Made by a program: the position numbers and the translations under genes. From positions 17,676,934-17,740,933 of the forward strand of contig NC_063151.1 of the NCBI RefSeq assembly GCF_020921035.1: 64,000 nucleotides of DNA. Direction: 5' to 3'. Numbering within the stretch: position 1 is the first letter of the stretch; each line of letters opens with the position of its first letter. The stretch comes from Rhodamnia argentea (Eukaryota > Streptophyta > Magnoliopsida > Myrtales > Myrtaceae). Below the pieces are notes generated by a model. The model searched no databases. It saw only the letters and a list, made by a program, of their open reading frames with translations, and was not told where the DNA came from. This document shows, piece after piece, positions 4,640 through 38,452 of the stretch.

Positions 4640-5257
4640 GCGATCACCAAAGGCTTGTATAGAAAAGTTCTTCACTAATAAGTGCAGAAAACCAGAAACT
4701 CTCAAGTTACCTTAACAAGGGGCATCATCCGATCGTCAGCGGCCTGTTGAAATAGTCTCTGTCGAGAACGTAATAAAAATCCGATCGTCACTTCTCTTTA
4801 GAGGAGGATTCAAACAAGCCAAGGAAGACTTGAATTTCTCGACAAAAATAAAAATGAGAGTATCCAAGGTTGACCATATGAAGCTCCATCTGTAGACGGA
4901 CTCAAAAAAGGTCCTCACCAACCCACATCCCCTCGGTTGAGATGGACTTCAATGGCTTCACAATCATTACCTTCCCCTCCTTTTCTTCTTTAAGTGGGTA
5001 AGTGCCAAACGAAGAAGACCAATGGACTCAGTCAGACAACCAAATTCAAATGCTCCCCCATTTTCCTCAGCATCAGTTTTATTCTTCAATGACAGCGGAC
5101 TGAGAAGTGGGACGGCCTGACGTAAGTGGCAAATGAGAAAAGAATTTCAAGGAGCCACACCCCATAACCTGGAAGCATGTTTTATGAATTAACTCATTCA
5201 TAATCTTGGACCAAACTTCTTCTCTTCGTTCTTGAATTTAATCTTTTTGTTTTCTTT
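4640..5257 (+). promoter_or_regulatory. Upstream half of the phytocyanin gene 2 promoter, separated from its gene
   Basis: This block aligns with the DNA directly upstream of genes 3 (22460-22900) and 4 (29370-29795 and 30214-30400), including the ctgagatgggactcagtcag-type and cttgaattnaatctt stretches. Here no gene follows, because a MULE starts at 5258. The missing lower half (TATA box and gene) resumes at 18740. Confidence 0.8.
5249..5257 (+). repeat. 9-bp target site duplication, left copy
   Basis: GTTTTCTTT immediately precedes the left inverted repeat and recurs exactly at 18731-18739. Nine base pairs is the Mutator-superfamily length. Confidence 0.92.
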
Positions 5258-5360
5258 GGGCTTTTTTTCAAATTGCATAAAAAAAATATTTACCAAATTA
5301 AAGGAAAAAAAACATATTTACCGTTTTGGAGTCCGCCCAGCGGTCATGCCGCCGAGCGGG
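5258..5360 (+). repeat. Left terminal inverted repeat of the MULE
   Basis: It matches the reverse complement of 18628-18730, with shared blocks ttaccaaatta, aacatatttaccgttttgg and accgccgag/gccgccgag. Small differences show the two ends have diverged. Confidence 0.88.
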
Positions 5361-6720
5361 TACCCGCTCGGCACCCACAATGCTGAGCAAGTCGGCGAGC
5401 AGAGAGCAAAACTGCTCTCCCCTCGCTGGCCGTGCGCTGGGCCCCTACTTGCTCGGCATTTAAACCGCCGAGCGAGTAGGGACCCCTACCATGCCGGCGC
5501 CTTTAATCGGGCATTGGCGGACGACGTGAAAGGTGCTGCGGGCACCTTTCACGAGCACTACTGAGCCTTTGGCTCTGTTTAAAGCAAAGCTGAAAGCTCT
5601 TTGCTCGGAAAGCATGCATTTGGCCGACGATTTCTCCTCTCCACAAAAGCTCATCCCTCCTCTGCAGAAGCCTCCTCCACAGAACCTCTTGTTCTTTTCG
5701 CCCCTCCTCGGTAGAAGCTCTTCCTTTGTTCGCATTGCGCTTCCCTCCTCTATAGAAGCTCTTCTCTTTTTGCACTCTTAGAGCCCTCAAACGGTTCCAT
5801 AAGCGATGACGTTTGTAAGCCCCAGAATTGGAAGTGCCGTGCCTCCTACCGGTGGCCTTTAATTCTGATTTTAAGTGATTGGGATATTAAGTGAACAGAG
5901 TGTGGAGTCCGCTAGGAGCCCTCCCCTCGCTTTGATTAACTTCGGCGAGATTTGTTCTTAATATCCCGACCAAGTTTTAATCAGACTCTCTAACACCTCA
6001 TTTCTTGTTTTCTTCTACATACTTTCAGCATTCTCCTCTTCAATTTTTGGTTTCTATTTTATGCAACGGTTTATCGATCACACCCCCTCTCCTCTTGTAT
6101 TCTCCCTCACATAGCTCACGAAGATTTTCTCATATCCCCCTCTACTCGGGTGCCTTTATTGATGTTAGTGTTTTTATTTTATTGCAAATATGTTCGTCAT
6201 GTTTAAATTAAATTAGGACTTTTTTATTTTTGCAGAAGTTGAGACAAAAGCAAAGCCGACCTTCTTACTCGGTGATTTCTCTTGATAGTTTGAGCTCTAC
6301 ATTCGGTGCGTGATTACCTTCAATAGTTTGAGGTAAACCTCGTTATAGTTATTTTTTGCAGTTTCGTAAATATTGTTTTATTTATTTGATTATTATTTAT
6401 ACACTGAATAGTTATAATGTTTACAAATTGCGGTAAATAAAAAAAATTACCATAATCTCGTAAAAACAAATTTTTAGGACTCGTTTTTGCAACTATGTCC
6501 ACATTTATTTTGATGATTTTCAAAATTTAAAAAAGAAATTTAGGAGTGTAAAATGATTTTTTGGGAAAATAAAAAAAAAAGTTGATCAGATAGCCCGAGA
6601 AGCAGGGGCGGGGTTTGACCCGGTCCGGAAAATATGTTTTTAATAATTTGAAAATTAGAATAATAGAAAATTAGAAAATACAAAATTGATTAAAAATAAA
6701 GAAAAATGATAGAGACTTTC
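5361..6720 (+). promoter_or_regulatory. MULE 5' leader region
   Basis: It starts GC-rich and becomes AT-rich, with no convincing protein. The stretch around 6285-6345 (gtttgagctc, attcggtgcg, then gtttgag followed by gtaaac) is conserved in the second MULE relic at 26470-26550. It ends in a plausible splice donor, so it is a likely 5' untranslated exon whose acceptor is the tttag just before the ATG at 7782. Confidence 0.45.
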
Positions 6721-7645
6721 AAAAAAATGAAGGAAAAATATTAAGAAACTCAAAAAAATAGGAAAATAGCCACAATGAACTGGCCATAGACTATTTTGGC
6801 TGGTGACTTAAAAAAATGACGATTTTGCCCTTACGGAAAAATATATCCCAAAAAAATTGTAAGAAATCTTCAAAATTAGGAAATGACCACAATGAACTGG
6901 CCATTGACGATTTAGGGTATTTTGGCCGACAACTTTTAAAAAATGACGACTTTGCCCTTTTGGCAAATGATCTCCCAAATTTTTTTTTAAAAATCTCAAA
7001 AATTAGGAAATAGTCACAATCAACTGGCCATGACCTATTCGGGGTATTTTGATCGACGAATTTAAAAAAATGACGATTTTGCCCTTCTGGCAAATTGTCT
7101 TCCAAAAAAATTATAAAAAATTTCAAAAATTAGGAAATAGCCACAATCAACTGGCCATGGATGATTCGGGGTATTTTGGCCGACGACTTGTAAAAAATGA
7201 CGATTTTTCCCTTCTGGCAAATAGACTCCCAAATTTTTTTTAAAAAATCCCAAAAATTAGGAAATAGCCACAATCAGCTGGCCATGGCCGATTCGGGGTA
7301 TTTTGGTCGATAAATTTTAAAAAATGACGATTTTACCCTTCCGGGAAATTGTCTTCCAAAAAAATTGTAAAAAATTCCAAAAATTAGTAAATGACCACAA
7401 TCAACTGGCCATGGACGATTCAAGGTATTTTGGCTCACGACTTTTAAAAAATGACGATTTTGCCCTTTTGGGAAATTGTCTCCCAAATTTTTTTTTAAAA
7501 AATCTCAAAAATTAGGAAATGGCCACAATCAAGCGGCCATGGGCGATTCAGGATATTTTGGCCGACGAATTTTAAAAAATGACTATTTTTCCCTTCTGGC
7601 AAATTGTCTTCCAAAAAAATTGTAAAAAATCCCAAAATGTCGTCT
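6721..7645 (+). repeat. Left subterminal array: about seven 127-bp monomers in a dimeric pattern
   Basis: The landmark ctggcc recurs at 6780, 6897, 7024, 7151, 7278, 7405 and 7533, a spacing of 127 bp after the first. Monomers alternate between a type with ctcccaaattttttttt and a type with cttccaaaaaaattgt, so the real unit is a 254-bp dimer. The array lies in the probable leader intron of the transposase gene. The same monomer, inverted, forms the right array at 15690-18590. Confidence 0.9.
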
Positions 7646-7781
7646 AAGCTCTTATGGCTATACTAGGATATTTAATTCATTTGATATATTGATAGTCGTA
7701 ATGTTAATTTGATAACATATATGGGACAATATTTACGAAATTGTAGTTTAGAAATAATTTCTAATTTATTTATTTAGCGGA

Positions 7782-10777
7782 ATGTCATCTACATCTTTTG
7801 CGATTGTGCCTCGGGGAGGTACAATAGTACGAACCGAATATGGAATTGATTACGAAGGAGGGCAATCTACCATGTTTGGGATTGCAAACATATCGACATT
7901 TAATGAGTTACGTGTGTCGATTGAGAGTGCATTGAATATCACAGGAAACCAGTATATTCAAACAGTGGTGTATAGATATCCGGTTGTAACACGCAATTGT
8001 GTTACATATGACATTACGAAGGTGCATGATGATGCTACGATTACGATGATCCAGCAATTTGTACTTCAGGATGGTGCTACGGGGTTTTTACGGTTTATGC
8101 AAGCGTAGCGAGAACACCAAATGAGAGATGATTTCACATAGGAAGGTTCGAATGTTGGTGAAGATGATGGTGGTCCGCATAATCGATGCGTGCAATCCGA
8201 TGATAATGATGATAATGCTGATAATGATTCTGCTGCTGATGTTGATGATGATGATGGTGATGAAGAAGATGATTCTTGGATGGACTCCGATGACAATGAT
8301 GATGAAGATGTCGGATGTGACAATATGGAAGCTTACTATAATACGTAGTGCAGCAATCCCATTTTTTCGTTGGTACATCAACATCCTTATTCGGAGATCG
8401 ACTTTGACATGATGCAAGACGATACAAGAGCCAAGCCGGGCCGTATGTTATTTGATCCATCAAAAGAATTTGATGTTGGCATATTGTTTACATCACGAGA
8501 CGTGGTGCGGTTGGCTGTAAAAGAGTACTCCCTTAGGAGAAATCATAATTTTTGCAGTTATTTGACAAAGAAAGTTGAATATGTGATAAGATGTGGCAAT
8601 CCAAATGGACCGTGTGGTTGGAGGCTCCGCGCGATTGCTAAATCGGGTTGCATGTTTTGGAAAATAAGTAAGTATAATGGGCCACATACATGCAGTTTTC
8701 TACAAATGTCATGAGATCATCGGCACCTTGACCAAAAGTACCTCTGCAGCCAGATAGAAGCAATGGTTGCCGTCCAACCAAATATCAAAATCAAGTCACT
8801 GATGGCGGAGATTCAAGATAAGCTGCACTTCGAACCTACTTACCGTAAAACTTGAAAGGCCAAATAAATGGCAATTGCCGGACAATTTGGAGATTGGGAT
8901 GAGTCATACGGTAGGTTGAGGACGTAGATGATCGAAATGGAGAGCCGGAATCCAAGTTCGCATTTTGTGATCGATGATCCTATCAACCTAGATCGGGGCT
9001 GCACGGTTTTCAACCGGATGTTTTGGACTTTCAAGCGGACGATTGAAGGCTTCGTAAGTTGTCCTCCCGTGATATTTGTTGATGGTACATTTTTGTACGG
9101 AAAATATCAAGGAACCCTCCTTTGTGCGGCCTCACTTGATGGAAATAATCATATTTTTCCGCTGGCATTTACTATAGTCCATCGGGAAAATGTTGACAAT
9201 TGGACTTGGTCTATGAATATGTTACGGAGACATGTCACTAAGAGAGATGATATTTGTGTAATATCGGACGGACATATCGGGATTCAACGAGCAATGGAAA
9301 CAGCACGGTGGCGTCCTCCACATGGCCACCATAGATATTGCATTCGGCACGTTGCCAGCAACTACAATAAACATTTCAAAAATGCCGAAGGCAAAAGACT
9401 AGTTCAGATGGCAGGTAAATTCTCGAATTTGTAAATTTCAAGAAAATACATATGCAAAAATTTGAGTACGAAGTACTAATTAATGTTGTAATATACAGCT
9501 TACGCGAACCAAGGGAAGAAGTTCAACCAATTCATGAGCCAAATAAGGGAGTTTGATCTAGCCACGGGTGCATGGTGCGATCGGATTCCAAGAGAAAAAT
9601 GGATAAAGGCTTATGATGAAGGGAGGAGATATGGATCGATGACGATAAAATTAGTCGAATCGATCAACGGGATGCTGAAGGGTTTTCGTGATCTGCCAAT
9701 AGCAGCTGTGGTCGACAAGATATTCTATCGGTTGATGCACTATTTTGATACGAGAAGAACGATGTATAGGGTGCGAAAAGACAATCGGTGGAAATATACG
9801 CAATTTGGGGGTGCCACGCTCTAGCACAACAGTCAAAAAGCAAATAGGCATGCCGTCACATGTTTCGACTATGATAGAGGGGTTTTCGAAGTGACAACTG
9901 GACGTGACAGATCCAGAGGTTCGGGGGGCCACAAACACATAGTGCGCCTAGACTTGCGAACATGCACATGTGGGAAATTTCAAGGGCTGAAAATCTCATG
10001 TTCACACGTAATTGCAGCATGTCAAGCGTGTGGCATTGATTACGAACCGTACATAGATGAATGGTATACTTTAGATAAAGGCTTATGATTATGACAAATT
10101 TAGTCGAATCGATCAACGGGATCTTGAAGGGTTTTCGTGGTCTGCCAATAGCAGCTATGGTCGACAAGATATTCTATCGGTTGATACACTATTTTGATAC
10201 AAGAAGAACGATGTATAGGGTGCAGAAAGACAATTAGTGGAAATATACGCAATTTGCGGGTGCCACGCTCGAGCACAACAGTCAAAAAGCAAATAGGAAT
10301 GCCGTCACATGTTTCGACTCTAATAGAGGGGTTTTCGAAGTGATAACTGGACGTGACGGATCCAGAGGTTCGGGAGGCCACAAACACATAGTGCGCCTAG
10401 ACTTGCGAACATGCACATGTGGGAAATTTCAAGGGCTGAAAATCTCATGTTCACACGTAATTGCATCATGTCAAGCGTATGGCATTGATTACGAACCGTA
10501 CGTAGATTAATGGTATACTTTAGATAAAACCCTTCGGTGCTATCGGTATATGTTTAATTCGTTGGGACATCTTGATTACGAGCTTGAACCCGACGAGCTG
10601 CCATTAGTGCCGGACCGGAGTCGTATTCGGAAGAAAGGAAGGCCCCGTGCATCACGGATTCGGAATGAGATGGATTGGAGAAGCCCGAACAGTAGCACTT
10701 CGCGAAATCATTGCACGGATCGTGGAAAATCAGAACACAATAGGAAAACTTGTGCACACAGATCGGCTAGAGAGTAG
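7782..10777 (+). pseudogene. MuDR-type MULE transposase pseudogene
   Basis: The frame from ATG 7782 runs to a splice donor at 9415; an 84-bp intron (9415-9498) leads into the next exon. The parts are, in order: an N-terminal MuDR-like region (7782-8105); an acidic Asp-rich linker; a MuDR DNA-binding-like zinc region (GPCGWRLRA, HTCSF); the DDE core with VDGTFLYGKYQG, ISDGHIGIQRA and CIRHVASNYNKHF; a likely third acidic residue in LVESINGML; and a SWIM zinc finger CTCGKFQGLKISCSHVIAAC. A C-terminal zinc-knuckle-like CX4GX4HX4C follows. In-frame stops lie at 8106, 8139, 8346, 8712, 8853, 8865, 8925 and 9822, so it cannot be made. The DNA encoding the third acidic residue and the SWIM finger is tandemly duplicated. 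Confidence 0.9.
9602..10522 (+). repeat. About 470-bp internal tandem duplication in the transposase
   Basis: Copy A runs about 9602-10073 and copy B about 10074-10522. Both begin gataaa, which suggests unequal recombination at that short match. Copy B lacks some 20 bp after its start, carries a stop after YEPYVD, and has Tyr for a Cys in CQAYGID. Copy B keeps Glu where copy A has the stop at 9822. Confidence 0.85.
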
Positions 10778-11014
10778 ATCATACTTGCGTTAATTCCGTA
10801 AATTAGCTTCATGAATTTTTTGTAATGTTATAATATTATTATTGGATTGATATTTATGAAGTTCATTTTTCCCGGATTTTTACATTACATATTTGAATTT
10901 TTTTTATAATGTTATAATATCACAATTGCACGATATTTATTCGGTTTATCTGTTCCATGTTATCCATACATATGGAAATTTGTTGTAATGTTATAGTATC
11001 ATAATTGTGTAGAT
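10778..11014. other. Spacer between the two MULE genes
   Basis: AT-rich spacer of about 240 bp. It contains three related stretches with tgtaatgttataatat, a small imperfect repeat. Confidence 0.5.
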
Positions 11015-14000
11015 ATGGCACAGAGTACTTACATTCAGCCGGGCCCAGAGGATGTTCACTACTTACTAGGCAAGCCAAACATAGATCTCGGGCTATATGG
11101 GACGCTAAGGTAATTGAAGAATTTTCAGTTGATCTGTCTTTTGTAACAACATTATCAAAATTGCCACTAATTGTTCATGTTACATTTCACAGATACTTCC
11201 GACAGAAGCTCTTAGATGTCAGCGAGTGATGCTACACATAGGTGATCTTGATCCGCGGATAGTCTCGTATCTGCAAGTTTCGGGATTTTAAGGCGTTTAT
11301 TTGATGGGATTCGTGCAACTGGATTGGCATTTAATTACTGCATTGGTCGAGCGGTGGAGGCCCGAGACCCACACCTTCCATATGTCGGAAGGTGAATGCA
11401 CTATCACGCTGCGAGATATTGCAAAGGTGACATGGCTTCCTATAGATGGACGTCCGATTCATCGGCCCCGTATTATCAATTGGGCCACCGTCTGTAATGA
11501 TCTACTCGGTGTTCACCCGGCCCGGTTGCGTGGCACACGGATCGGTTTGAGCTGGTTGTTGACACCTAAATTTTGATTTTTCTTATCATGCATTAAAAAA
11601 GGAATCATGGTCTGGGCGTGGGGAAATCAAGTAGAATATATTCATATATCAGTTGAAGAAGCAAAAAGAAATAAAAATCAAGAAGATATGCGTGAATATT
11701 TACAAAAAGGAAAGACCATCTCTCAAGATGCACATTTTTTCTAATATAAAAGGGGAGACCACCAAACTATTTGTGGGGGGCGGCAATTTTCTGCTCACAA
11801 AAAGAAAAGGGATATACGTGAGCATAAGAGAAAAAAAAGAGAGAAGTTTTTTTTAACGTGGATTGGTTGTGTTTGGTGCTTCTCCTCCTGGCTAGGTGCC
11901 TTTTTTTTTGCTACTGATTCGACCTCGAATCTTGCTGCTGAGTACCCAATCTTCCTGCTGTTCAATACCGATTTTGCCACTGTCCGGGGCCGTTCTTCTG
12001 TGCTGATTGGTACCCGGATCCACTGCTCTCCAGCCCTATTTTCACTGCTGTTCGAGGTTTATTTTGCTGCAAATTAGTGCGTAATTCGGCCACTGTTTAG
12101 TCCAGTTTTCCACAGCTATTAAGGGAGTAATCTAGCTGCTGTTTAGTGGCTTTTCACTGCTGAATCGAATACAAAACAGCTTTGTTTTTTTGGGTATCTT
12201 TGATACTAATCGGTGCAGATTTGTATCATTGTTAAAAGACGATTAGCTTGGCGTTTTAGAGTGATTTTCCTTGCAAATTGGCGTGGAGTGAGGTTCAAAT
12301 TAGCTGCTGCGAGTTCATCTTGCCAAGGTTTCCTTAGGCGTGCAAATCTCAGCCGATCGGTCTAAGCAAAGTCGCTTGGCATTCAAGTTTGCTTCAAGAT
12401 CAAATTAGGTAACTTTTCTAATCTATTGATATCTTTTGGAATATTGAAGGTTATCTTGTGTCTAAATTGGAATCCTTAAAAAATCCTTATCATATCTTTT
12501 AAACTTGGAAAATTATCTAATATACTTTGAAGATCTCAAGAGATAACTTTTCCTAAATTTAAAAAATATCGATATCCTTTGCGGATAGGGCCATATGCCC
12601 TTTAAAATTTTGGTAATCCCCTATGGGTTTTCGAAATTCATGCGGCCTTGATTGATTTTTACTTTTATATTTAGCATGTTTATATTCTGCATATTGTTTG
12701 CAATTTATTGTCATAAAGTTTGAACTTTAGTAAGCAATATTGCCCATAATACATACTCCCTATTTGTGCCTTGTCCCTCGGAAAACGTACATTAAAGGCA
12801 ACATATGACTTCGATCTCAAAGTACGATCGTGCCCGTACGTGTGAATTAGATATCAAATCCTCGATCTCGAGGAGCGGATCGCTAATTCCTAAATAGAAT
12901 TTCAAGGTTTGCCCTATGTATATAGGGACGACGGTAATTCTATAATATATTCACTTGCTAACCCTAATCTTGGGGATGTTGTGAATAAAAATCAGAATTT
13001 CGGATTTAAAGGTGTTTTATGGGCAATATTGTTTATTTTTGTTCAAATTTCACTGTTTTCATGGTTTAAATAATTTCCTAAAAAATCCCAAAAAAGATGT
13101 CACGTTTTCTTAAGCTTAATCACATTTCTCTTCACTTCTTGCATGAAAATAATGTCTAATAAAATTAGGACTTTGAGAAATCAATTTCTTAAGTTAAATT
13201 AGATGTTACTTCACGTTAGGGTAGTTTTTACCTTTATTTTTTCATGAATCCGAAAATACACAAAAATATACCAAAAAATACCATCCACGTTGCATAGCAT
13301 TATAGTTTAGTTCGCATTATTATATTTTCTTTGTCATGCATATTTGCCACGTCATTATGCCATGTCACGTATTTTTGCTATGTCATTACATCTCACATGT
13401 CATATAGGTAAATTGCATTAGCATTGCATTTAATAAAAGAAAACCCCAAAAAAAAATTAATTCAAATCATCAAACTAAGGATTTTTCATGAAAATCGGGT
13501 ATCGAAAGGGCATTAATTGAAAAGTTAATGTAACCAAGTCCCCGAATCTATTTAATCTCTGGTATTTTCTCCCGAATACTTTATTTAGGTTTCTAATCTA
13601 CCTACCATAAAAGATGAGTGGCGGCTCCAATTTAAAATCTTGGCATGCAATTGAACCTAAGTTGCGATTCGGTAGGACTTGGGAGAGTCCGAATTAGGTT
13701 AATTAATCTAATTAACCTAATAATATGTTAACTTGAAAAAACCAATTTTTAGGTCGCGACACTGGTCGAGACAGCGCTTTGAAGAACTTCCAGCAGAGGC
13801 CGATGACGTCATCATAGTGCGGGATGCACGAGCTTTCATTCTCCGTTTACTAGGAGGATCTATTTTCGCGGACAAATCAGGTGCTCGAGTTAGTTTGCTA
13901 TTTCTTCCATTATTGGCGAACCTCAACGTCCTTACGCAGTATAGTTGGGGTTCAGCAGCACTTGCATGGTTGTACAAAGAGTTATGTCGTGCAACCAACC

Positions 14001-15479
14001 CGCAGGCGAAGCAAATGGGTGGTGCCTTACATATACTATAGATTTGGGCGTGGGAGCGCTTGAGATGCGTCTCCCTATCCCCGACGGTTGATGTTCCTTT
14101 AGTACATGCACCTTTCGATAGTCGGTATGTGATCTATTGCAATTTCATTTCGTGCATCATTAATTCCTTCCAGTGCGTATTATATATGAAAATTGAATGT
14201 TTTTTGTTTATGCGGTTGGAGTCAAGGTCGAAGCACAACAGAGATCCCCATGCATACATTGGTATATCTGCGCTACCAACTTGATAGATTGGCATCCGAA
14301 GATGTAAGTAATGATAGCAACGAATGAATTTAATATAATGTTAGCTTTTAAATTAATTCTTCATTTAATTTGATATGTTTTATTACGATAACATATTACT
14401 TGGGAGCCCTACGGTGGTGACATTCTGGAGAATGTATCGTATCATCGCCTGCGGGAACAAGATATTTGGAGGGTTCGTGTTCCACTCATCCGTTTCTGGA
14501 TAGTTGAGTGGCATTATCCAGACCGGGTACTTCGCCGGTTTGGTATGCGGCAGCCAATACCTACTCTTCCTAGCGATCACAAAGCCTTGCATGATATTGA
14601 CAATAGGCCACCCGGGAAGGATTGAGCGGCTAAGCACGAACGATGGATCGCTATGTGGGACAGACGTACCGAATATATAGTCCATGCTGATCCCGCAACG
14701 GAGGAACTCCACTTTCATTCGGAATATATGGAGTGGTTCCGTAAACATACACGGAAGTGGATTTCTATTACGGGAGCTGCAATAGGTTCAATGGTTCATG
14801 CAAATACTTTCAATTTAATTCATTAATTATATTTTAGTAACATAAGTTATTGTAATTTTATAACATTTGTTACTTGTGATATCATTACCAGGATGATGAC
14901 GTGGAACAAATCTTATGTATAACAAATTCACGTCCATCTCGTCGGGTTTGGGCGGATGTAGGGAGGATAGCCGGGGCAATGCTATACGCCCAGCATGAGG
15001 AGAGGCGGCCAATGATAATGCCACCACCCCAACCAACAATTACAACGGCACCCGTTGGCCCTTACGATGACGATCCACCCGAGCCTGTTCAGGCGACCCG
15101 GAGGACTCCTCGAGCTCATGCGGTTGGCGATGCCGTCCCTTACACCTTCGAGTATCATACGACGGATTTCGCTCCGGGTTTCACTTCAGGATTAGACCAA
15201 ACAGGTTTCGATGCGGGAATCGCCCATTTTGCCGTCCCATTTCTCGAGGGATCTACTTTTACATTTCCCGACCTGCAGACTCCAGCTCCTTCTCTTTCTT
15301 CGTATGGATCCGATTTCTCTCTTTTTTATTCCGGCTTCTCTACAGAAGGATATGTACCGCCTGGGCGGGGCATATTTTCACAAGATATACCTTCATCATC
15401 TACACATCCTCCTCGGTCGGATCCTCCTCCTCATCCGTACAATACTAGACCTGTCGAGTATCGAAGAGAACCTCGTTGA
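11015..15479 (+). pseudogene. Plant mobile domain (PMD) protein pseudogene carried by the MULE
   Basis: Translated pieces match the plant mobile domain, also called aminotransferase-like PMD and found in MAIN/MAIL1: PGPED, QAKHRSRAIWDA, GDLDPRIVSYLQ, FVQLDWHLITALVERWRPET, TITLRDIAKVTWLPIDGRP, then beyond the inserted LTR RFEELPAEADDV, LLGGSIFADKSG, TQYSWGSAALAWLYKELCRA, IWAWERL, HITWEPYGG and FWIVEWHYPDRVLRRFG. A Pro/Ser-rich C-terminal exon (14892-15479) follows. Probable introns begin after CTAAG near 11111 and in the 14100s, 14300s and 14800s. It has a frameshift near 11055 and stops at 11289, 14039 and 14623, besides the LTR at 11557-13761. MAIN and MAIL1 act in plant genome silencing; PMD genes are also known inside transposons. 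A host silencing-related role for this copy is inference only. Confidence 0.88.
11557..13761. mobile_element. Solo LTR nested in the PMD pseudogene
   Basis: The 2,205-bp insert starts TGTTGACACC and ends GGTCGCGACA, so it has TG...CA ends, and CTGGT is duplicated on both sides (11552-11556 and 13762-13766). Deleting the insert and one CTGGT restores the PMD frame. It has no gag or pol frame, which fits a solo LTR. Its ends are inverted repeats over about 26 bp, longer than most LTRs. The stretch near 11740 (aatataaaagggg) could be its own TATA region. Confidence 0.85.
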
Positions 15480-15689
15480 TGAACGGAAGGTCATGTAGAA
15501 AGACGACATCGTTAGTACATGTAATTGCGACAGTCCGATTGTTATCTATTATGAAAATAACATGTTTTTCAAATGTCTCAGCACTTTTATTTTATGAATA
15601 TTCTTAATTAATTACACTAATAAAATACGCTTCAAAAGAAACAATTTATAAATAAAATAATAATTATTAAAAACGTAACAAAAATAACA

Positions 15690-18590
15690 ATTTTAAAAAA
15701 AAAATTCGACCAAAACAAAATACCATGAATCGTCTATGGCCAGTTGATTGTGGCCATTTACTAATTTTTGAGATTTTTTACAATTTTTTTGGAAGACAAT
15801 TTGCTAGAAGGGCAAAATCGTCATTTTTAAAAGTCGTCTGTCAAAATGCCCTGAATCGTCCATGGCCAGTTGATTGTGGCCATTTATTAATTTTTAGGAT
15901 TTTTTACAATTTTTTTGGGACACAATTTTGCCGGAAGGGTAAAATCGTCATTTTTTAAAAGTCGTCGGCAAAAATACTCCCGATCATCCATGGCCAGTTC
16001 ATTGTGGTCATTTATTATTTTTGAGATTTTTTACAATTTTTTCGACAAACAATTTGCCATGAGGGCAAAACCATCATGTTCTAAAAGTCGTCGGCCAAAA
16101 TACCCCGAATCATTCATGGCCAGTTGATTATGGTCATTTACTAATTTTTGAGATTTTTTACAATTTTTGTGGAAGATAATTTTCCGGAAGGGCGAAATCG
16201 TGATTTTTAAAAGTCGTAGGCCAAAATACCCTGAATCGTCCATGGCCAATTGATTGTGGCCATTTACTAATTTTTGGGATTTTTTACAATTTTTTTTGGA
16301 GACAATTTGCCAGAAGGGAAAAATCATCATTTTTAAAAGCCGATGGCAAAAATACCCCGGATCGTCCATGGCCGATTGATTGTGGCCATTTACTAATTTT
16401 TACAATTTTTTTGGCGGACAATTTACCGGAAGGGCAAAACCGTCATTTTCAAAAATTCATCCATCAAAATACCCCGAATCGTCCATGGCCAGTTGATTAT
16501 AGCCATTTACTAATTTTTGAGATTTTTTACAATTTTTTTGGAAGACAATTTGCCGGAAGGGCAAAATCGTCATTTTTAAAAGTTGTTGGCTAAAATACCC
16601 TAAATCGTCCATGGCGAGTTGATTGTGGCCATTTACTAATTTTTGGGATTTTTTATAATTTTTTTGATAGACAATTTGCCATAAGGGTAAAATCGTCATT
16701 TTTTAAAAGTCATTGATAAAAATACCCTCGATCATCCATGGCCAGTTCATTGTGGCCATTTATTAATTTTTAGGATTTTTTACAATTTTTTTCACATACA
16801 ATTTGTCATAAGGGCAAGACCGTCATTTTCTAAAAGTCATCGGCCAAAATGTCCCGAATCGTCCATGGCCGATTGATTATGGTCATTTACTAATTTTTGA
16901 GATTTTTTACAACTTTTTTAGAAGATAATTTGCCAAAAGGGCGAAATCGTCATTTTTAAAAGTCGTAGGCCAAAATACCCCGAATCGTGCATGGCCAGTT
17001 GATTGTAGTCATTTACTAATTTTTGTGATTTTTTACAATTTTTTTGGGAGACAATTTGCCGGAAGGGCAAAATTGTCATTTTTTAAAAGTTATCGGCAAA
17101 AATACCCCGGATCGTCCATGGCCAGTTGATTGTGGCCATTAACGAATTTTTAAAATTTTTTACAATTTTTTTTGCGGACAATTTGCTAGAAGGGCAAAAC
17201 CGTCATTTTCTAAAAGTCATTGGCCAAAATACCTTGAATCGTCCATGGCCGGTTGATTATGGCTATTTACTAATTTTTGAGATTTTTTACAATTTTTTTG
17301 GAAGACAATTTGCCGGAAGGGCAAAATCATCATTTTTAAAAGTCATCGGCCAAAATACCCTTAACCGTCCATGGCCAATTGATTGTAGCTATTTACTAAT
17401 TTTTAGGATTTTTTACAATTTTTTTGGGAGACAATTTGTAGATGGGTAAAATCGTCATTTTTTAAAAGTCGTCGGCAAAAATACCCCGGATCGTCCATGG
17501 CCGGTTCATTGTGGCTATTTATTAATTTTTGGGATTTTTTACAATTTTTTTCGCAGATAATTTGTCATAAGGGCAAAATCGCCATTTTCTAAAAGTCATC
17601 GACCAAAATTCCCCGAATCGTCCATGGCCAATTGATTATGGTCATTTACTAATTTTTGAGATTTTTTACAATTTTTTTAGAAGATAATTTGCCAGAAGGG
17701 CGAAATCGTCATTTTCAAAAATCGTCGACCAAAATACCCTTAATCGTCCATGGCCAATTGATTGTGACCATTTACTAATTTTTGAGATTTTTTACAATTT
17801 TTTTGGGAGACAATTTGCTAGAAGGGCAAAATCGTCATTTTTTAAAAGACATCGGCAAAAATACCCCGGATCGTCCATGACTAGTTGATTGTGGTCATTT
17901 ACTAATTTTTGGGATTGTTTTATAATTTTTTTGGCATACAATTTGCCGGAAGGACAAAACCGTCATTTTCTAAAAGTCGTCGGCCAAAATACCCTGAATC
18001 GTCCATGGCCAGTTGATTAAAGCCTTTTTGAAATTTTTTATAATTTTTTTGGAAGACAATTGGCCAGAAGGGCAAAATCGTCATTTTTAAAAGTCGTCGG
18101 CCAAAATACCCCGAATCGTCTATGGTCAGTTGATTGTGGCCATTTACTAATTTTTAGGATTTTTTACGCTTTTTTTGGGAGACAATTTACCGGAGGGTAA
18201 AATCGTCATTTTTTAAAGGTCGTTGGCAAAAATACTCCGGATTGTCCATGGCCAATTCATTGTGGCCATTTATTAATTTTTGGGATTTTTTGCAATTTTT
18301 TTGGCAAACAATTTGCCATAAGGGCAAAACCGTCATTTTCTAAAAGTCGTCGGCAAAAATACCCCGAATCGTCCATGACCAGTTGATTATGGTCATTTAC
18401 TAATTTTTGAGATGTTTTACAATTTTTTTGGAAGATAATTTGCCGGAAGGGCAAAATCGTCATTTTTAAAAGTCGTCCGCCAAAATACCTCGAATCGTCC
18501 ATGGCCAATTGATTGTAGCCATTTACTAATTTTTGAGATTTTTTATAATTTTTTTAGGAGAGAATTTGTCGGAAGGACAATCTTCAGGGC
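15690..18590 (-). repeat. Right subterminal array: about 23 monomers of 127 bp in a trimeric pattern
   Basis: The landmark ggcca recurs at 15738, 15864, 15992 and 16118 and so on every 126-128 bp. Monomers cycle A-B-C: A has gaagacaattt and catttttaaaag; B has gggagacaattt, cattttttaaaag and ggcaaaaatac; C has a variable acaattt start and cattttctaaaag. The cycle repeats more than seven times, a 381-bp higher-order unit. Orientation is opposite to the left array, so the arrays act as long, imperfect subterminal inverted repeats. Confidence 0.9.
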
Positions 18591-18627
18591 GGGGTTGGGG
18601 GTGTTTGTGGGCGGTGGAGAAGCCCAC

Positions 18628-18730
18628 CTACTCGGCGGTCTTATCGCAGAGCGGACCCCAAAACGGTAAATATGTTTTTTTTTCCCTAATTTGGTAAAAA
18701 AAAAAAATTATGCAATTTGGAAAAAAGCCC
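18628..18730 (-). repeat. Right terminal inverted repeat of the MULE
   Basis: Its reverse complement matches 5258-5360, and it ends in gggc-complement directly at the duplicated 9-mer. Confidence 0.88.
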
Positions 18731-18739
18731 GTTTTCTTT
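18731..18739 (+). repeat. 9-bp target site duplication, right copy
   Basis: GTTTTCTTT, identical to 5249-5257. It lies 57 bp upstream of the TATA box of gene 2. Confidence 0.92.
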
Positions 18740-18795
18740 CTCCAGCTGAGTTGAGAAATATTTTAGCTCCTTACTAATTCTTGCCAGAATTTGGG

Positions 18796-18803
18796 TATAT
18801 AAA
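18796..18803 (+). promoter_or_regulatory. TATA box of phytocyanin-like gene 2
   Basis: TATATAAA followed by the leader shared with genes 3 and 4. Only some 57 bp of native promoter remain upstream before the MULE end. Confidence 0.75.
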
Positions 18804-18904
18804 CCCACATTGATGAACCTCAAAACTCACATCAACTGCCAAAACAATTTAACTTCTTTGTTTTCCAGCTAACCAGAGAGATCTTTCGAGAATATTTTAG
18901 CGAA

Positions 18905-19766
18905 ATGGCAGGACTGAGGTATGCAGGAATGGTGGTGCTGGTGATAGCGGCGACCATGGCAATGACCGAGGCCAAGACTATAGTTGTTGGTGGATCTGAG
19001 AACTGGCGTTTCGGCTAAAACTACACGGACTGGGCACTTAAGAACAGTCCCTTCTACATCAACGACAAACTTGGTAAGTGCAACCACCTAAGTTTTAGTT
19101 TCCGGCTTTCAGCCAAGGAAAATTTTCTTCCTCTTATGCTGCTGAAGTTTGCATAATTGGGAAAGTTTTACCGAAAAATTGGCCATCATTCAGGAAAAGA
19201 CGTGACAAATAAGATATTTGAATTTCACTTTGCATAGAATATGATGAATATACATGTAAACCTATCGTCCACAACGTGATTGTGAGGGTAACCCTCAAGG
19301 TTTCTTTGAGTGAGAGATAATGTAACGGACATAGGATCTAGGAGGGAAGGTGACATTTGTTCTTTAATGTGAACTGATTGTTGAAATCTTAAACACTGGC
19401 TAGGGATGTGGATTGCGGACCATATCAAGAACCCCTTACAAGTTTCCTTTACTCAAGAAACGATGGCAATATCATTATGAACCATCAAAATGAATTACTT
19501 ACGCTTAACTATTTTTACTTTCTTGGCTAGTGTTCAAGTTTGATGCTCCCCACAACGTGTACTTGCTGCCCAACCTGTATAGCTACATCAAGTGCGACTT
19601 TAGGGGTGCGAAGCTTCTCGTCGATGCATCGAAAGGCACCGGAGAAGGGTTCGAGGTCGTGCTGAACCAATGGAGGAGGCTCTACTACTTTGCTTCCTCT
19701 AATGACAAGGACTGCTCCGACGGCTTGATGAAATTCTTCGCCATGCCGCTTCTGCGTTGGCAGTGA
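18905..19766 (+). pseudogene. Phytocyanin-like copy 2, nonsense-mutated
   Basis: Exons 18905..19073 and 19531..19766 with an intact GT-AG intron of 457 bp. Codon 38 is TAA (19016-19018) where the paralogs read Tyr (GFG-Y-NYTD context), a single C-to-A change. Everything else stays in frame to the end, with one extra Arg from a 3-bp duplication (NQWRRLYY). The start at 18905 gives the same AGLRYAGM signal peptide as copies 3 and 4. A product would stop shortly after the signal peptide. The MULE in its promoter gives a second reason for loss of function; the order of the two events cannot be told. Confidence 0.85.
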
Positions 19767-19820
19767 ATCGGACTAAGAGTCTGGGGAAATTTGATTATTT
19801 TTATGCAATTATAGAATTTG

Positions 19821-22994: not shown

Positions 22995-23094
22995 CCCTCA
23001 TTGATGGACCTCGAAACTCACTTCAACTGCCAAAACAATTTATCTTCATTGTTTTTCAGCTAACCAGAGAGGTCTTTCGAGAGTGCATAGCAAA

Positions 23095-23942
23095 ATGGCA
23101 GGACTGAGGTATGCCGGAATGGCGTTGCTGGTGATAGCGGCGACCATGGCGATGACTGAGGCCAACACTATTGTTGTTGGTGGATCTGAGAACTGGCGTT
23201 TTGGCTACAACTACACGGACTGGGCTCTTAAGAACAGTCCCTTCTACATCAACGACACACTTGGTGAGTGCAACCACCTAACTTTTAGTTTTAGTCAAGG
23301 AAAATTTACTTCCTCTGATGCTGCAGAAGTTTGCATAATTGAGAAAGTTTTACCTAAACATTGGCCATTATTCAGGAAAAGACGTGACAAGTAGGATAGT
23401 TGAATTTTCAATTTGCCTAGAATATGATGAATATAAATGTAACCATCTCGTCCACAACGTGATTATGAGGCTAAGCCTTAAGTTTACTTCTAATGAGAGA
23501 TAATGTAACGGACATAGGATCTAGGAGGGAAGGTGAAATTTGTTCTTTCATGTGGATTTGGTTGTTGAAAGCTCAAATACCGTCTCTGATGTGGATTGCG
23601 CACCAAATCAAGAACCCGTTTATAAGCTTTCTTCTATAATTGATGTCGATGTCATTATGGACCATCAAAATGAATTACCTATGCTCAACTGTTCTTTTTT
23701 CTTGGCTAGTGTTCAAGTTTGATGCTCCCCACAACGTGTACTTGCTGCCCAACCTGTATAGCTACATCAAGTGCGATTTCAGGGGTGCGAAGCTTCTTGC
23801 CAGTGCGCCGACAGGTGCCGGAGAAGGGTTTGAGGTCGTGCTGAACCAATGGAGGCTCTACTACTTTGCTTCCTCTAACGACAAGGATTGCTCCGACGGC
23901 TTGATGAAGTTCTTCGCCATGCCACTTCCGCATTGGCAGTGA
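23095..23942 (+). CDS. Phytocyanin-like secreted protein, copy 3
   Basis: Exons 23095..23263 and 23710..23942, intron 446 bp, product 133 residues. It has the signal peptide MAGLRYAGMALLVIAATMAMTEA, a domain start NTIVVGGSENWRFGYNYTDW, the conserved His in APHNVYLL and the disulfide cysteines. As in copy 1, the copper Cys is Ser (YFASS) and the second copper His is Asp (KDC). C-terminus PLPHWQ, no anchor. It has its full promoter block and a polyadenylation signal, and all frames are open, so it is probably functional. It is closer to copies 2 and 4 than to copy 1. Confidence 0.92.
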
Positions 23943-23995
23943 ATCGGACTAGAGCCTAGGGAAATTTGATAATTTTTATGCCATTATAGAATTTG

Positions 23996-24001: not shown

Positions 24002-24186
24002 GAATGGCCGATCCTGGAGAGGTCGTGGCTGAAATAAACATATGTCGTGAGGGTATTTTATTGTTTCTTCTATTACTCATGTATTACCTGCTGGTTACTG
24101 TGAAGTGAAATTATGCTGTGACAAAATTTTCGTTGTTCTTCAATATAATCTAACACAGAAAATAATTGCATGATCATATTTGATCT

Positions 24187-25417
24187 CCAAAACATCCGGT
24201 TGAAAACGGTGTAGCTTCGATCTAGGTTCATGTGACCATCGATCACAAAATGAGAACCTGGATTGCTTACCATCATTTCGTTCATGAACTTTCTCAACAT
24301 ACCGTACGACTCATCTCATCCTTCAAAAGATTGGGCAATTGCCATTTGTTTAGCTGCCCAGGTTTTACGATAAGTAGGTTCGAAGTGCAGATTGTCTTGA
24401 ATCTCCGTCATCGGTGCCTTAATTCTGATATATGGTTGGACGATGACCATTCCTTTTATCTGGCTACATATGTATCTCTAATCAAATTACCGATGATCCC
24501 GTGACATTTGAGGATGACTACATGTGTGTGGCCCATTGTACTTAACTATTTTCCAAAATAAGGTACCCGCTTTATTAGACACGCGGAATCTCCAATCACA
24601 CAGTCCATTCCAATTACCACATCTTATCACATATTGTGACTTATTGTGACATCGCTGCGAAAGTAATGATTTCTTATCAGAGAGTACTCTTTCGCAGCAT
24701 CAAAGAGTACTCTTTCGCAGCCAACTATAACTCGCCCCGTGATGGAAATAACATGCCAACATCAAATTCTTTTGATGGATCAAATAACATACGCCTCGGC
24801 TTGGCTCTTGTATCGACTTGCATCATATCAAAGTCGATCTCCGAATATGGCGGCGGATGTACCAACGGCAAGATGGGATTGCTATAATAGGTGTTGTAGT
24901 AAGCTTCCATATTGTCACCTCCGACATCTTCCTCATCATTGTCATCGGTGTCCATCCAATCATCATCTTCTTCATCTCGATCATCTCCATCATTATGATA
25001 GGGGTCCACGTATTGATTATGCACACCAACACCATCTTCACCAATATTACAACCTTCCTCAGCTGAATCATTTATTACTTGGTATTCAGCTACGGTTGCA
25101 TAAAACTATAAAAATCTCGTAGCACTAGTCTCAAGTGCAAATTGCTTAATCATTCTAATGGTACCATCATCATGCACCTCCGTGATGTCATATATGACAC
25201 AATTTGATGTTAAAATCGGGAATCTATATATCAACTTATGAATATACTGGTTGGGTGTTATATTCAACGCGCTCTCTATCGTAGCACGTAACTCATCAAA
25301 TGTCGATATGTTTGCAAACTCGAACATGGTAGATTGTCGGCTTTTGTAATCATGTTCATATTCTTTTTGCACTATTCTACCTTCCCAGTATACAATCGCA
25401 AATAATGTAGATGACAT
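24187..25417 (-). pseudogene. Truncated MuDR-type transposase pseudogene
   Basis: Start codon at 25415-25417. The first 103 codons (MSSTLFAIV...) are related to the N-terminus of the first transposase (MSSTSFAIV...) and stop at 25106. The acidic linker (25024-24725) and a stretch with NPGSHFVIDGHMNLDRSYTVFNRMFW (24290-24187) follow. All of the catalytic triad region and the SWIM finger are missing. Confidence 0.8.
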
Positions 25418-26029
25418 TCTGCTAAATAAAGAAATTATAAATTATTTCGTACATACAATTTAGAAAACATTGTCTCGAACACATTAACAAATTAACATTA
25501 TACCAATTAATATATCAAATGAAATAAATGTATGGTATAGCCTAATGGCTTTGATAATGTGTGATCAAAGTGCATGGGCAAATAGGGAAAATTTGGGAGC
25601 CAATTTGTCAAAAAGGGAAAAATCATCATTTTCAAAAGCATGGAAAGTCAAATTACCGAAATTAGGATTTGGCTAGTTGATTGTGATCATTTACTATTTT
25701 TCGGGATTTTCCGAAATTCTATTAATTTTTTTGGGAGAGATTTTGCGGGAAAGGAAAATTTGTTTTTTTTTTTTAAATCGGGGGCCAAATATCCACAATA
25801 ATCCATGGCTAGCTAATTGTGGCCATTACAGCAATGAATTTTTTGAAATTTTCAATGAATTTTTTCGATTTTTTTCTTTTCTATGATTTTAATCAATTTT
25901 TTATTTTTTTTTTATTTTTTTATTATTGGAATTTTGAAATTATTTTAAAAACTATTTTTCGGACCGGGTCAAATTCGGCCTGCGATTCTCGAGCCATCCG
26001 ATCACCTAGAAATGAATATATGAGTCCAA

Positions 26030-26250
26030 AAAAAATTTAACAAGATTAGGGCGAATTTTTTTATTTCTACTGTCTCCAAGTACGCTATTATGTTCTCCTT
26101 CATGGCTTTCTATAGCGGCTCTAGCTGTTAACTTTTTTTTTAAAATAGAGCCGCTAGAGAAAGCCTTGAAGGAGAATATGATAGCATACTTGGAAATAGG
26201 GCAAATAAAAAAAATTCGCCCTAATCTCGTTAAATTTTTTTAATCAAGTC
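26030..26250. repeat. Foldback (near-palindromic) insertion in the second MULE relic
   Basis: The left arm (attagggcgaattttttta ... tagcggctcta) is mirrored by the right arm (tagagccgcta ... aaattcgccctaat), giving about 95-bp arms around a short loop near 26130. The arms extend outward through a ttaac-rich stretch. A roughly 45-bp sequence with gtcaaatncggcc is repeated directly on both sides (25968 and 26246 regions). Confidence 0.7.
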
Positions 26251-27207
26251 AAATCCGGCCCGCGCTTCTCGTATTGTCTTCTTTGATAATCTTTTTTTGT
26301 TATTTTCCTAAAAATTCATTTTAAACTCCAAAAATAGTAAATATTTTTAAATAATATTTGCATTCGCAAAAATTTAAAACAAATTACTAACAACCTATAT
26401 GTAACATAGATGATTCAGACACAAATAATAATCACATAAATAAATCTATAGTTACGAAACCGCAAAAAATAATGAAAACGAAATTTACCTCAAATTGTCG
26501 AGAGAGCGCACGCACCGAATAAGGAGCTCAAACTGTCAAAAAAGAGTACCAAATTAATTTAAATATTAACATAAAAACGTAGTACTAACAACATATAAAT
26601 CATATAAACAAAAATTCATACTTAACTATAAAGAAAAGTGTCTAAGGGAGAGCGTTTGAAGGACAGCAAGAGCATCTAAGGGAGAGGGAGAGCGTCTAAA
26701 AGACAGAACAAGTGATAGAACATTCTGAGATGGAGGAAGAACGTCTGAAGGAGAGGGAGAGCAAGAAAACGCTCGGAAAGAGAGAAAATTTTTGGAATGA
26801 GAGAATGAGAGGAAAATGAAATTTTAAAGAAGGGAAGAGGGGAACAGGCGCAGAGGTCGTAGCGTTTGCACGCCTACAGCACCCGACGCCGTAGTGCGCA
26901 AAATGCGGAGGGGCGAGGAGTCCCCACTCTCACTCAACAATTCAATTGCCGAGCGTAGGGGGCCCCCCTCCCCCCCCATAGCAAGCGAAGGTGGCAAGGG
27001 GAGGCCCCCCTGCCCCCCATAAACATGGAGAGGGACGAGCCCCCCCGCGCTCTGCAATTTAATTGCCAAGCAAAGAAGGGGGGTGGACCCCCTACCTCCC
27101 GCTAGGCAGCTGGGCTGCCAAGCGAGACCCAAATTAGAAAATATTTTTAAAATAATATATTTTTTAAAATAATTTTTTTAAAAAAATTAAATTAGAAAAA
27201 AAACCGG

Positions 27208-28134
27208 TAGTTCTAGCCGCACATCAAGTATAATTTTATCCACTCATTGTTCGCCACATGCCCCTTGGGCCTACGTTTCGATTTTTGCGGAAAACCTTTC
27301 TCGGTCCCTTGCTCTTTTTCATAAACACCTCATCTTCGTCTTCGTCTTCGTCCCTCGACAATACCCATGTACCCAAAAAGGAGATCATCTTGAGGGCGAC
27401 AGAGCAAAGAAGTCAAGAGGGATCGAGGTTGATACCATCATACTAGACAAATATTTGTGTTCACGTTCGGTAAAAATGGGTGACAAGTTACCTTGCTTAG
27501 TCCCAGACAAGTCTCTTCTCATTTTCAGACCTCGGTGGATATTCATCGTCGTGTATCAATGCGTACACCGTCCGATAATCACTTTCACTATAAGACCTTT
27601 GATATATAAAGGAACCAACTTGAGTTGATGCCTGCATATTTGTATCTGGATTTTTAATTTGTTCAATATGGCTTTTGAGCTATTCCTACAATTCAATGTA
27701 GTCTTTTTTTATTGTCATAAATGATAGAAAGTCATCACATCCCTCAACTATTACGAAATGTGCAACATAAATCCTAAGAATGTCTAGAAATGTGTAATCT
27801 AATCCATAACCTTTCAATTCATCCAATCTAATCCCTCAACTTTTCATAACAAAGTCAAATGAGTGGTTCGGTATTGTTCACAAATACTCCAGGTAACATT
27901 TTTGCCCAAAGTTTACAGTATTTTTTTCATTCACTACAAACACTTGGACGATGAATAGAAGCATTGAAATGAACAGCATACAGATTTAACAACACATGAG
28001 GAATTATAAACTTACTCTAAAACTGAAGATAAAATGGAAAGATACCGCTGAACAGAAAATGCTTCATAAGAAAATTTGGCAGGGTTTTGGCATAGCTTGG
28101 GCATGTCTTTCTACCGCTTTATTCGGTTTATTTA
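27208..28134. other. Intergenic DNA between the MULE relic and a MITE
   Basis: No gene recognised. It holds a short TCT/CGT-rich triplet stretch near 27330-27350 and otherwise AT-rich sequence. Confidence 0.4.
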
Positions 28135-29369: not shown

Positions 29370-30449
29370 AGAACGCTTGTACAGAAAAGTTCTTCATTTG
29401 ATGCAGAAAGGAGAAATTCTCGGGTCACCTCAACAAGTGGCATCATCCGATCATCAGCAGCTTGTTGAACTAACTCTTCGGGAATGTAATAGAAATCCAA
29501 GCATGGAAGACGTCTCTCCTATTTAGAAGAGGATTCAAACTAGCCAAGAAAGACTTGAATTTCTTGACTACCGAAGGTTGACCGCAAAGAGCTCCATCAG
29601 AAGGGCTCAGGAAACGTCCTCACCATCCAACCCCCATTGACTACTTTGAGTTGAACCGCAATGGCTTCACAATCATAGCCTTTCCCTCCTTTTGTTCTCC
29701 AAGTGGATAATTGCCAAACCGATGAAGACGAATGGACTCAGTCGTACCACTGACTTCAAATGCTACCCATATTCCTTAGCTGTTCATTCTTTCTAAGGAT
29801 TAATACCATGAAATATTCCAAATTGTTATACCGGTGGCAAATTTATCCAAAACTACCAAATTGGTGTACCTACGATAATTTTACCCCAAACTAATTTTAA
29901 TCACAAAAACCTGAACTGGTACCCCCGTGACAAACTTACCCTCCATTAGTTTTCGTTATGCTTGATTAAACACTATGAAAAAGCCCAAATTAGTGCACCC
30001 GTAACAAACAGATGGTAAAAATCCCAAAACGATATGCCCGTCAACTTCCACGTGTCATTCAACTTATTAATTTGATAGTGAAATTTAACAACAATCGGCA
30101 TAGGATAAATTTGTCACAAATATACAAATTTAGGATTTTTGGAGGTCAAAAAATTAATTTGAGGTAAATATGTCATAGATGTACCAATTTAGTATTTTTC
30201 ATGATATTAACCCTTCTTTCAACGAACTTCAAAATGAGAACTCGGATGGGTCTAACATAAGTGGCAAATGAGAAGAGAATTTCAGGAACCGAAAGCCGTA
30301 ATCTAGAAGCATGTTGTATTAATTGACTCGTTCAAAATCCTGGGCAAAACGTCTTCTGTTCATTCTTGAATTCAATCTTCTTTTTCTCCTTTTCTTTTGC
30401 CAACCAAGTTGAGAAGATTTAGCTCCGGCCATTCTTGAAAGAAAATGAG
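29370..30449 (+). promoter_or_regulatory. Upstream promoter block of gene 4, with a MITE inside
   Basis: It is homologous to the blocks of genes 2 and 3. The match stops at 29795 and resumes at 30214, where a 418-bp MITE has been inserted. Confidence 0.75.
29796..30213. mobile_element. MULE-type MITE in the promoter of gene 4
   Basis: Inverted ends AGGATTAATACCATGAAAT and GGGTTAATATCATGAAAAA (reverse complement). The flanking 9-mers TTCTTTCTA (29787) and TTCTTTCAA (30214) differ by one base, fitting a Mutator target duplication. Its body repeats the aaatttaccccaaact motif found in two other elements of the window. Confidence 0.75.
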
Positions 30450-30457
30450 TATATAAA
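30450..30457 (+). promoter_or_regulatory. TATA box of phytocyanin-like gene 4
   Basis: TATATAAA, 109 bp before the ATG, in the conserved context. Confidence 0.75.
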
Positions 30458-30558
30458 CCCCCGTTGATAAACCTCGAAACTCACTTCAACTGCAAAAACA
30501 ATTTAACCTCATTGTTTTTCAGTACATCAGAGAGATCTTTTGAGAATATTTTAGCGAA

Positions 30559-31261: not shown

Positions 31262-31332
31262 TTGGGATGAAGAGCCGGACCAGCTCCGTTTGCTAGCGAT
31301 ATTTGATTGTGTTTATGCAATTATAGAATTTA

Positions 31333-35240: not shown

Positions 35241-38452
<3,212 letters not shown>

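Follow-up and report, generated by a model that had tools for sequence, protein, structure and literature searches.

A MULE family of Rhodamnia argentea with mirrored tandem arrays of a 127-bp monomer

The element and its genes

The window, a stretch of 64,000 nucleotides from Rhodamnia argentea, contains a MULE of 13,473 bp (5258-18730), of which the interval first described (6721-18590) is the middle part, bounded by terminal inverted repeats (TIRs) of about 100 bp and a perfect 9-bp target-site duplication (TSD), GTTTTCTTT. Remnants of two genes, both on the same strand in this copy, lie between two tandem arrays of one monomer. The features of the element and of a related remnant are as follows.

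5249-5257, no strand: left TSD, GTTTTCTTT; the same 9 bases adjoin the right TIR, and a paralogous empty site lies near 30391
5258-5357, plus strand: left TIR (GGGCTTTTTTTCAAATTGCAT...), 81% identical over 100 bp to 18631-18730 reversed
6734-7640, plus strand: left array of six full and two partial 127-bp monomers in A-B (254-bp) order, from TRF, an HMM scan and a monomer tree
7758-10777, plus strand: MuDR-type transposase gene remnant with Pfam domains, broken by stops and by a 449-bp tandem duplication at 9638-10528
11292-11576, plus strand: N-terminal part of a plant mobile domain (PMD; PF10536), profile positions 6-99 of 347
11577-15479, plus strand: probable remainder of the PMD gene remnant, from alignment to relatives
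15704-18580, minus strand: right array of 23 monomers of about 126 bp, a trimer (381 bp) nested in a hexamer (762 bp), from TRF, an HMM scan, permutations and a monomer tree
18631-18730, minus strand: right TIR, separated from the right array by about 50 bp
18731-18739, no strand: right TSD, GTTTTCTTT, a perfect 9-bp match to the left copy
24186-27210, minus strand: remnant of a diverged relative of the window MULE, its right part missing and its outer limit near 27210 judged by eye

The insertion is documented by an empty site in tandem gene copies of the window, where two segments next to each other near 30391 correspond to 5101-5257 and 18732-19101. We take this neighbouring gene family to be blue-copper-like (plantacyanin); the three frames scanned gave no Pfam match. 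The same ends recur in relatives of the element. Among 10 elements with both ends located (one end was not located in two of the 12 read), the TSD is perfect in eight, matches at 8/9 bases in element e8 and is absent in e1.

The transposase remnant carries a MULE-type DDE domain (PF10551, 8928-9434, E 2.1e-17) and a SWIM domain (PF04434, 9825-10088, E 1.1e-7). A match to DBD_Tnp_Mut in 8349-8714 is weak and below the cut-off, and the first frame (7758-8108) gave no Pfam match. Later frames of the window copy, where scanned (14880-15479), likewise gave none. In the relative L011, two frames cover positions 1-193 and 237-347 of the 347 in the PF10536 profile, almost end to end. The VANC domains DUF1985 and DUF287 were not found by Pfam in the 10 + 5 frames scanned.

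Amino-acid changes in the transposase and PMD frames fall below expectation, with omega-like values of 0.53-0.73, a rough measure for which we chose the mutation weights and skipped insertions relative to L011. This shortfall suggests that the PMD gene has probably been maintained together with the element. No intact copy was seen among the ten compared, because each has, in the reading used, an in-frame stop in at least one of four coding blocks.

The arrays had been described as subterminal and as lying inside a transposon. The second point is borne out by the TIRs, the 9-bp TSD and the transposase domains. The first applies to the right array, about 50 bp inside its TIR, but not to the left array, which begins about 1.4 kb inside its own. 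For the same reason the arrays are not extended inverted ends in the strict sense, as had been suggested, and a foldback element was rejected; the tandem repeats of the window copy are not themselves the inverted ends. On their gene-facing sides, about 140 bp separate the end of the left array from the ATG at 7782 in the first long frame downstream, and the right array begins about 225 bp past the last long frame (end 15479). The related remnant shows a similar layout, with three partial monomer matches (25592-25855) upstream of its transposase remnant. A derivation of the monomer from the TIR found no support: in the window copy, a monomer HMM at E 0.01 matched nothing beyond the arrays.

Monomer order in the window copy

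Two arrays of one monomer in opposite orientation, as first described, were recovered by both TRF and the HMM scan, at nearly the coordinates given then, except that the left array begins at about 6734-6755 and not at 6721. On the left, TRF reported a 127-bp period at 6811-7638 with a score of 1029 and a 254-bp one at 6808-7637 with a score of 1241; the HMM scan found six full and two partial monomers on the plus strand (6755-7640). On the right, TRF reported a 126/253-bp array of 22.8 units (15716-18580, score 3678), and the HMM scan placed 23 monomers on the minus strand over the same interval.

The left array, put at about seven units in a dimeric pattern, contains A monomers with a AAAATTGTA-like tract and B monomers with a run of T, and its middle tract reads ABABAB. 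The dimer has an identity gain of +0.056, which 10% of permutations equal; six monomers allow no lower figure, so that the case for a dimer rests on the ABABAB tract and on the grouping of the three B monomers in the tree (support 100/97). The three A monomers form no group and are mixed with right monomers. The right array does hold about 23 units in a trimeric pattern: monomers 3k apart are more alike (+0.042 identity, reached by 0/5000 permutations of 22 full monomers). This trimer is itself nested in a 762-bp hexamer, which had not been described; within trimer phases, a period of six monomers was reached by 3/5000 permutations with the end monomer R1 left out.

A monomer tree had been proposed as the test of this order. 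Labels by position do cluster in it (7 changes versus 17.0 in shuffles, 0/200 as low), as expected of a higher-order repeat, in a tree that is partly resolved (16/26 branches open). The grouping is clean for the left B type and for one right phase (99/97), but partial or absent for the others; the other two right phases show 4 and 3 label changes versus 7.2 when shuffled.

Arrays across the family

We searched the 346.7-Mb assembly with a transposase query free of array sequence (window 8900-10090) and scored 40 loci among 195 candidates. Left monomers were present at all 40, in 34 by coordinates and in six by reading the sequence. In the 34 placed by coordinates they lie upstream of the transposase in the same orientation, a count into which about 65 of the best 100 of 655 monomer sites entered and which may include arrays of a neighbouring copy, as in a cluster at C5:17.10-17.13 Mb. 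The six loci read directly have 1 to 10 full left monomers each; overall, counts of full left monomers range from 1 (L033) to 17 (L037). Signs of a right array were found at at least 27/40 loci and of both sides at at least 25/40, and the inner-right junction lies within 9 kb of 27/40 among the matches listed. Both ends were read in an ascertained set of 12 elements, the window copy and 11 chosen by array matches; all have opposed arrays, with 5-14 left and 5-23 right monomers.

Shorter copies bear on which parts can be lost. Two internally deleted copies, 5504 and 4449 bp long, retain an array on each side and are flanked by perfect TSDs. Three short TIR-bounded copies (1545, 1655 and 1750 bp), two of them with a perfect 9-bp TSD, carry an array in the right-side position only, so the left array is dispensable for the existence of a TIR-bounded copy. 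A need for the right array cannot be shown from these three, since they were found by monomer search. The copies L029 and L030 were rejected as two insertions, and look like one duplicated segment because they have a deletion and 13/14 bases beside one end in common. High-copy miniature elements made of an array only were sought with L042 and L039 as queries, and no other full-length match appeared among 40 candidates scored (of 628 and 827). Partial relatives of these two exist, for example at C7:7816538-7818970.

Other parts of the element accompanied the arrays at every locus checked. Judged from these comparisons, the arrays are a regular part of this MULE family in the genome, evidently older than its radiation, with a copy number that differs from element to element.

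The higher-order pattern, by contrast with the arrays themselves, belongs to the window copy and one relative and not to the family. Among the 12 elements, clear A-B alternation of the left array was limited to the window copy and e1; the simple rule used gave no A or B label to many left monomers of the other elements, and e6 has a weaker dimer sign (42/1000 permutations). On the right, a period of three was found in the window copy (0/1000) and more weakly in e1 (24/1000), and the e1 trimer and e6 dimer are weak signals given 12 elements and several periods tried. The trimer was rejected as a family trait, as the other ten right arrays are without it (189 to 920 of 1000 permutations reach their values). 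The units of the e1 trimer do not match the window phases one to one, and the two trimers thus probably arose separately.

The two sides differ in their histories. In the right arrays of the nine other elements compared, monomers at the same position from the right end are 0.88-0.96 identical versus 0.75-0.92 at other positions, positions 1-4 being distinct and 5-7 hardly so; the left arrays of the same nine show little positional signal (0.84-0.89 on the diagonal versus 0.81-0.88 off it). These position comparisons, like those of period, used monomer matches of about 85 model positions or more. The left array of e10, unlike the others, is 96-99% homogeneous (lag means), which indicates a recent expansion. 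Because right monomers are position-specific and left arrays turn over, the sides have separate histories, as the preliminary description had supposed in proposing independent expansion. On this monomer evidence, the right array is the older in layout and the left the faster in turnover. Left and right consensus sequences differ at 6/125 columns, and within one element the left monomers, when inverted, match the right ones with a mean identity of 81%.

Conservation and decay

Across nine elements, right monomers are 0.917-0.957 identical at positions 1-5 from the right end and 0.881-0.906 at positions 6-8. Coding blocks are 0.892-0.931 identical between elements and TIRs 0.844-0.852, so that positions 1-5 are conserved about as well as the coding blocks and better than the TIRs. 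This is not exceptional, because the adjoining non-coding strips are conserved as well or better (0.972 at 15480-15700; 0.965 at 7640-7783). Within the monomer, conservation is spread along its length, and no sharply conserved core resembling a protein site was found in it. Conservation follows base composition (0.92-0.94 in A/T columns versus 0.81-0.83 in G/C columns), and the lower values at G/C are expected from C-to-T decay. A special single-strand structure was also considered and rejected, as the four monomers folded no better than shuffles (z -0.78 to 0.58).

Substitutions in the arrays are mostly C-to-T and G-to-A in all cytosine contexts, as in the transposase exon. This excess suggests that the array DNA has probably been methylated in the past. 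For CHH sites the right array has a rate of 0.122, the left array one of 0.058 and the exon one of 0.038, whereas the excess of C-to-T over T-to-C is 2.95 and 3.5 in the arrays versus 3.85 in the exon.

Possible roles of the arrays

The mirrored layout, the retention of left monomers at 40/40 transposase loci, the conservation and the constrained genes together favour a cis-acting role of the arrays, protein binding being its simplest form. In the model that we tentatively prefer, though we hold it with less than even confidence, the mirrored arrays would be binding sites for a protein encoded by the element and would have grown by unequal exchange. The element is a MULE with two genes, a MuDR-type transposase and a PMD gene, and the 127-bp monomer fills its non-coding margins in mirrored arrays, the left one immediately before the transposase gene and the right one between the PMD gene and the right TIR. 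Each monomer would bind the transposase or the PMD protein, and many facing sites on both sides could increase recruitment to the ends or keep flanking regulatory DNA open, a part that VANC target repeats play in VANDAL MULEs. Array length would be loosely selected and would drift by unequal exchange or slippage. Duplications of several monomers do at times leave a dimer, trimer or hexamer pattern, of which the window copy is an example.

Several observations agree with binding sites. The retention was found with a query without array sequence, opposed arrays occur in 12/12 elements of the ascertained set, and both internally deleted copies with perfect TSDs keep the two arrays. Right positions 1-5 are conserved at about the level of the coding blocks and above the TIRs, the transposase and PMD frames are constrained, and PF10536 is nearly complete in L011. 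The mirrored orientation resembles that of end-binding arrays. There are also published parallels in VANC targets (PMC5735166; PMC10398659) and in speculation on PMD anti-silencing (PMC5418596). Against it stand the lack of a site-like core in the monomer, neighbouring non-coding strips that are as conserved or more so, the three short copies (1545-1750 bp) with a right-side array only, the stops in at least one of four blocks in 10/10 copies compared, and the absence of DUF1985 and DUF287 from the frames scanned. The range of 1 (L033) to 17 (L037) full left monomers would fit no function as well. The step from retention of the arrays to protein binding is one that we infer.

That the arrays are passive is a real possibility, which we hold with some doubt. 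A short segment duplicated near each end would have expanded and contracted by unequal exchange or replication slippage and been copied along without function, and the higher-order patterns would be accidents of multi-monomer duplication. The wide variation of copy number between elements, the homogeneous e10 left array beside others that are not, and the different units of the window and e1 trimers fit this well. So do the lack of a conserved core, margins that are equally conserved and the ordinary folding of the four single monomers. Passive arrays explain less readily why left monomers are present at 40/40 scored transposase loci, why position-specific right monomers are kept across nine elements and why the orientation is mirrored on both sides of the genes.

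A more specific form of the binding-site model is, in our estimate, unlikely. Here the PMD protein or a partner would bind the mirrored arrays and keep the element open, as an anti-silencing or end-recruitment system and an analogue of VANC of separate origin. The dimer, trimer and hexamer patterns and the expansion would then record selection for more or altered sites, copy by copy.

It seems to us rather improbable that the opposed arrays give rise to small RNA or are targeted by it, with read-through hairpins and RNA-directed DNA methylation (RdDM) silencing the family. In its favour are the 81% average identity of inverted left and right monomers, the predominance of C-to-T and G-to-A changes in every cytosine context, the CHH rate of the right array being high (0.122), and the attraction of RdDM by tandem repeats in VANDALs (PMC10398659). 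However, 8 kb and two sense-strand genes separate the arrays of the window copy, the exon has a C-to-T excess at least as high as that of the arrays, and silencing does not explain why the element keeps its arrays.

The preliminary description had raised the arrays as a birthplace of satellite DNA and called for a genome-wide search for the monomer outside MULEs. A conserved 29-mer, allowing up to three mismatches, has 655 sites in the genome (0 for a reversed-pattern control). The 12 elements read hold 123 of them; at that density the 655 amount to the sites of about 64 elements, which agrees with the 69 sites of the right-junction pattern (47 with at most one mismatch). The best 100 of the 655 sites form 48 array loci. 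For 39 of these a listed transposase locus or right junction is no more than 20 kb away, and each of the remaining nine was read and contains sequence of the element. No free-standing satellite array was seen among these 48, nor was the monomer seen outside MULEs; every locus in this best-100 set is near or with MULE parts. Satellite DNA in birth, spreading beyond the transposon, is favoured by the higher-order structure, by the precedent of Tetris in Drosophila virilis (PMC4079207) and by the 555 sites outside the listed set, but is very improbable given the agreement of site numbers with element numbers, the element sequence or neighbours at all listed loci and the absence of any array longer than the window's 2.9 kb among those read or listed.

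Relation to known systems and significance

MULEs with facing tandem repeats are already known (Muta1, Tm1, Tetris, plant tandem TIRs and VANDAL target repeats), as are PMD genes in MULEs. The closest likeness is to VANDAL elements of Arabidopsis, MULEs with an extra gene in which the VANC targets form rapidly evolving tandem repeats; these occupy non-coding parts, among them the region upstream of the transposase gene (PMC5735166; PMC10398659). Variable non-coding tandem repeats at that place are found here too; an anti-silencing gene with DUF1985 or DUF287 was not found in the frames scanned. Unlike VANDALs, the element described here has clear TIRs, mirrored 127-bp arrays and a PMD gene, with at most a putative anti-silencing function. 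PMD and/or DUF genes are reported in half of the members of the VANDAL group (PMC6446971), and an anti-silencing use of PMDs captured by MULEs has been suggested as speculation (PMC5418596).

Further parallels come from animals. Tetris, a foldback element of D. virilis with an 8-10 bp TSD that its authors place in the Mutator superfamily, has tandem repeats of about 220 bp in variable copy number inside both inverted ends (PMC4079207). It is without a known transposase copy and seeded long satellite-like arrays, whereas the family here has copies with coding blocks and no free arrays among the sites checked. Two MULEs, Muta1 of Aedes aegypti and Tm1 of root-knot nematodes, have facing tandem repeats of variable copy number at both ends, but of 9-15 bp and inside the TIR (PMC5225508; PMC3169594), whereas the 127-bp arrays here lie in non-coding DNA. 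The THAP-site repeats of Galileo have been proposed to raise recruitment to the ends or keep DNA open. Galileo likewise has long ends with tandem repeats and multiple transposase binding sites; its transposase is of the P superfamily and its repeats are within the TIR, unlike in the MULE here (PMC3688188; PMC4079207). Plant MULEs with tandem TIRs have duplicated end sequences on both sides, but the repeated unit is the TIR itself in two or three copies, and the monomer here is not the TIR.

In the accessible part of the open-access literature, no plant MULE family was found for which mirrored arrays with a monomer longer than 100 bp and a higher-order arrangement are reported. The family described here has long tandem arrays on both sides as its regular plan, and its copies offer a naturally occurring range of array lengths and higher-order patterns. 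Should a protein of the element bind the arrays, the use of captured plant mobile domains by MULEs against silencing would become directly testable. Should none bind them, the family would be a clean case of higher-order repeats arising within a transposon, without centromeres, very long arrays or free satellite.

Neighbourhood of the window copy

The window also holds the following features:

102-850, 18876-19770, 23092-23946, 30443-31262 and 32964-33225, genes and fragments of a tandem gene family
9638-10528, 449-bp tandem duplication (94% identical) in the window copy, within its transposase remnant
24186-27210, minus strand, second MULE of the same kind as the window copy, diverged, right part missing
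37432-37532, perfect TC microsatellite of 50.5 units

The SWIM region of the window-copy transposase remnant falls inside the tandem duplication. Three partial matches to the 127-bp monomer were found in the second MULE, at the left-array position, and this element adjoins another member of the tandem gene family. The family, which we take to be blue-copper/plantacyanin-like, gave no Pfam match in the three frames scanned. One of its genes, with its ATG at 18905, about 175 bp downstream of the window-copy MULE, contains an in-frame TAA at a codon that specifies tyrosine in its paralogue near 23092.

Short copies elsewhere in the genome

Two short copies of the same MULE family, L029 and L030, lie 12.7 Mb apart on one chromosome in opposite orientation. 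Because they have an internal deletion in common and 13 of the 14 bases next to one end also match, they suggest a duplicated segment.
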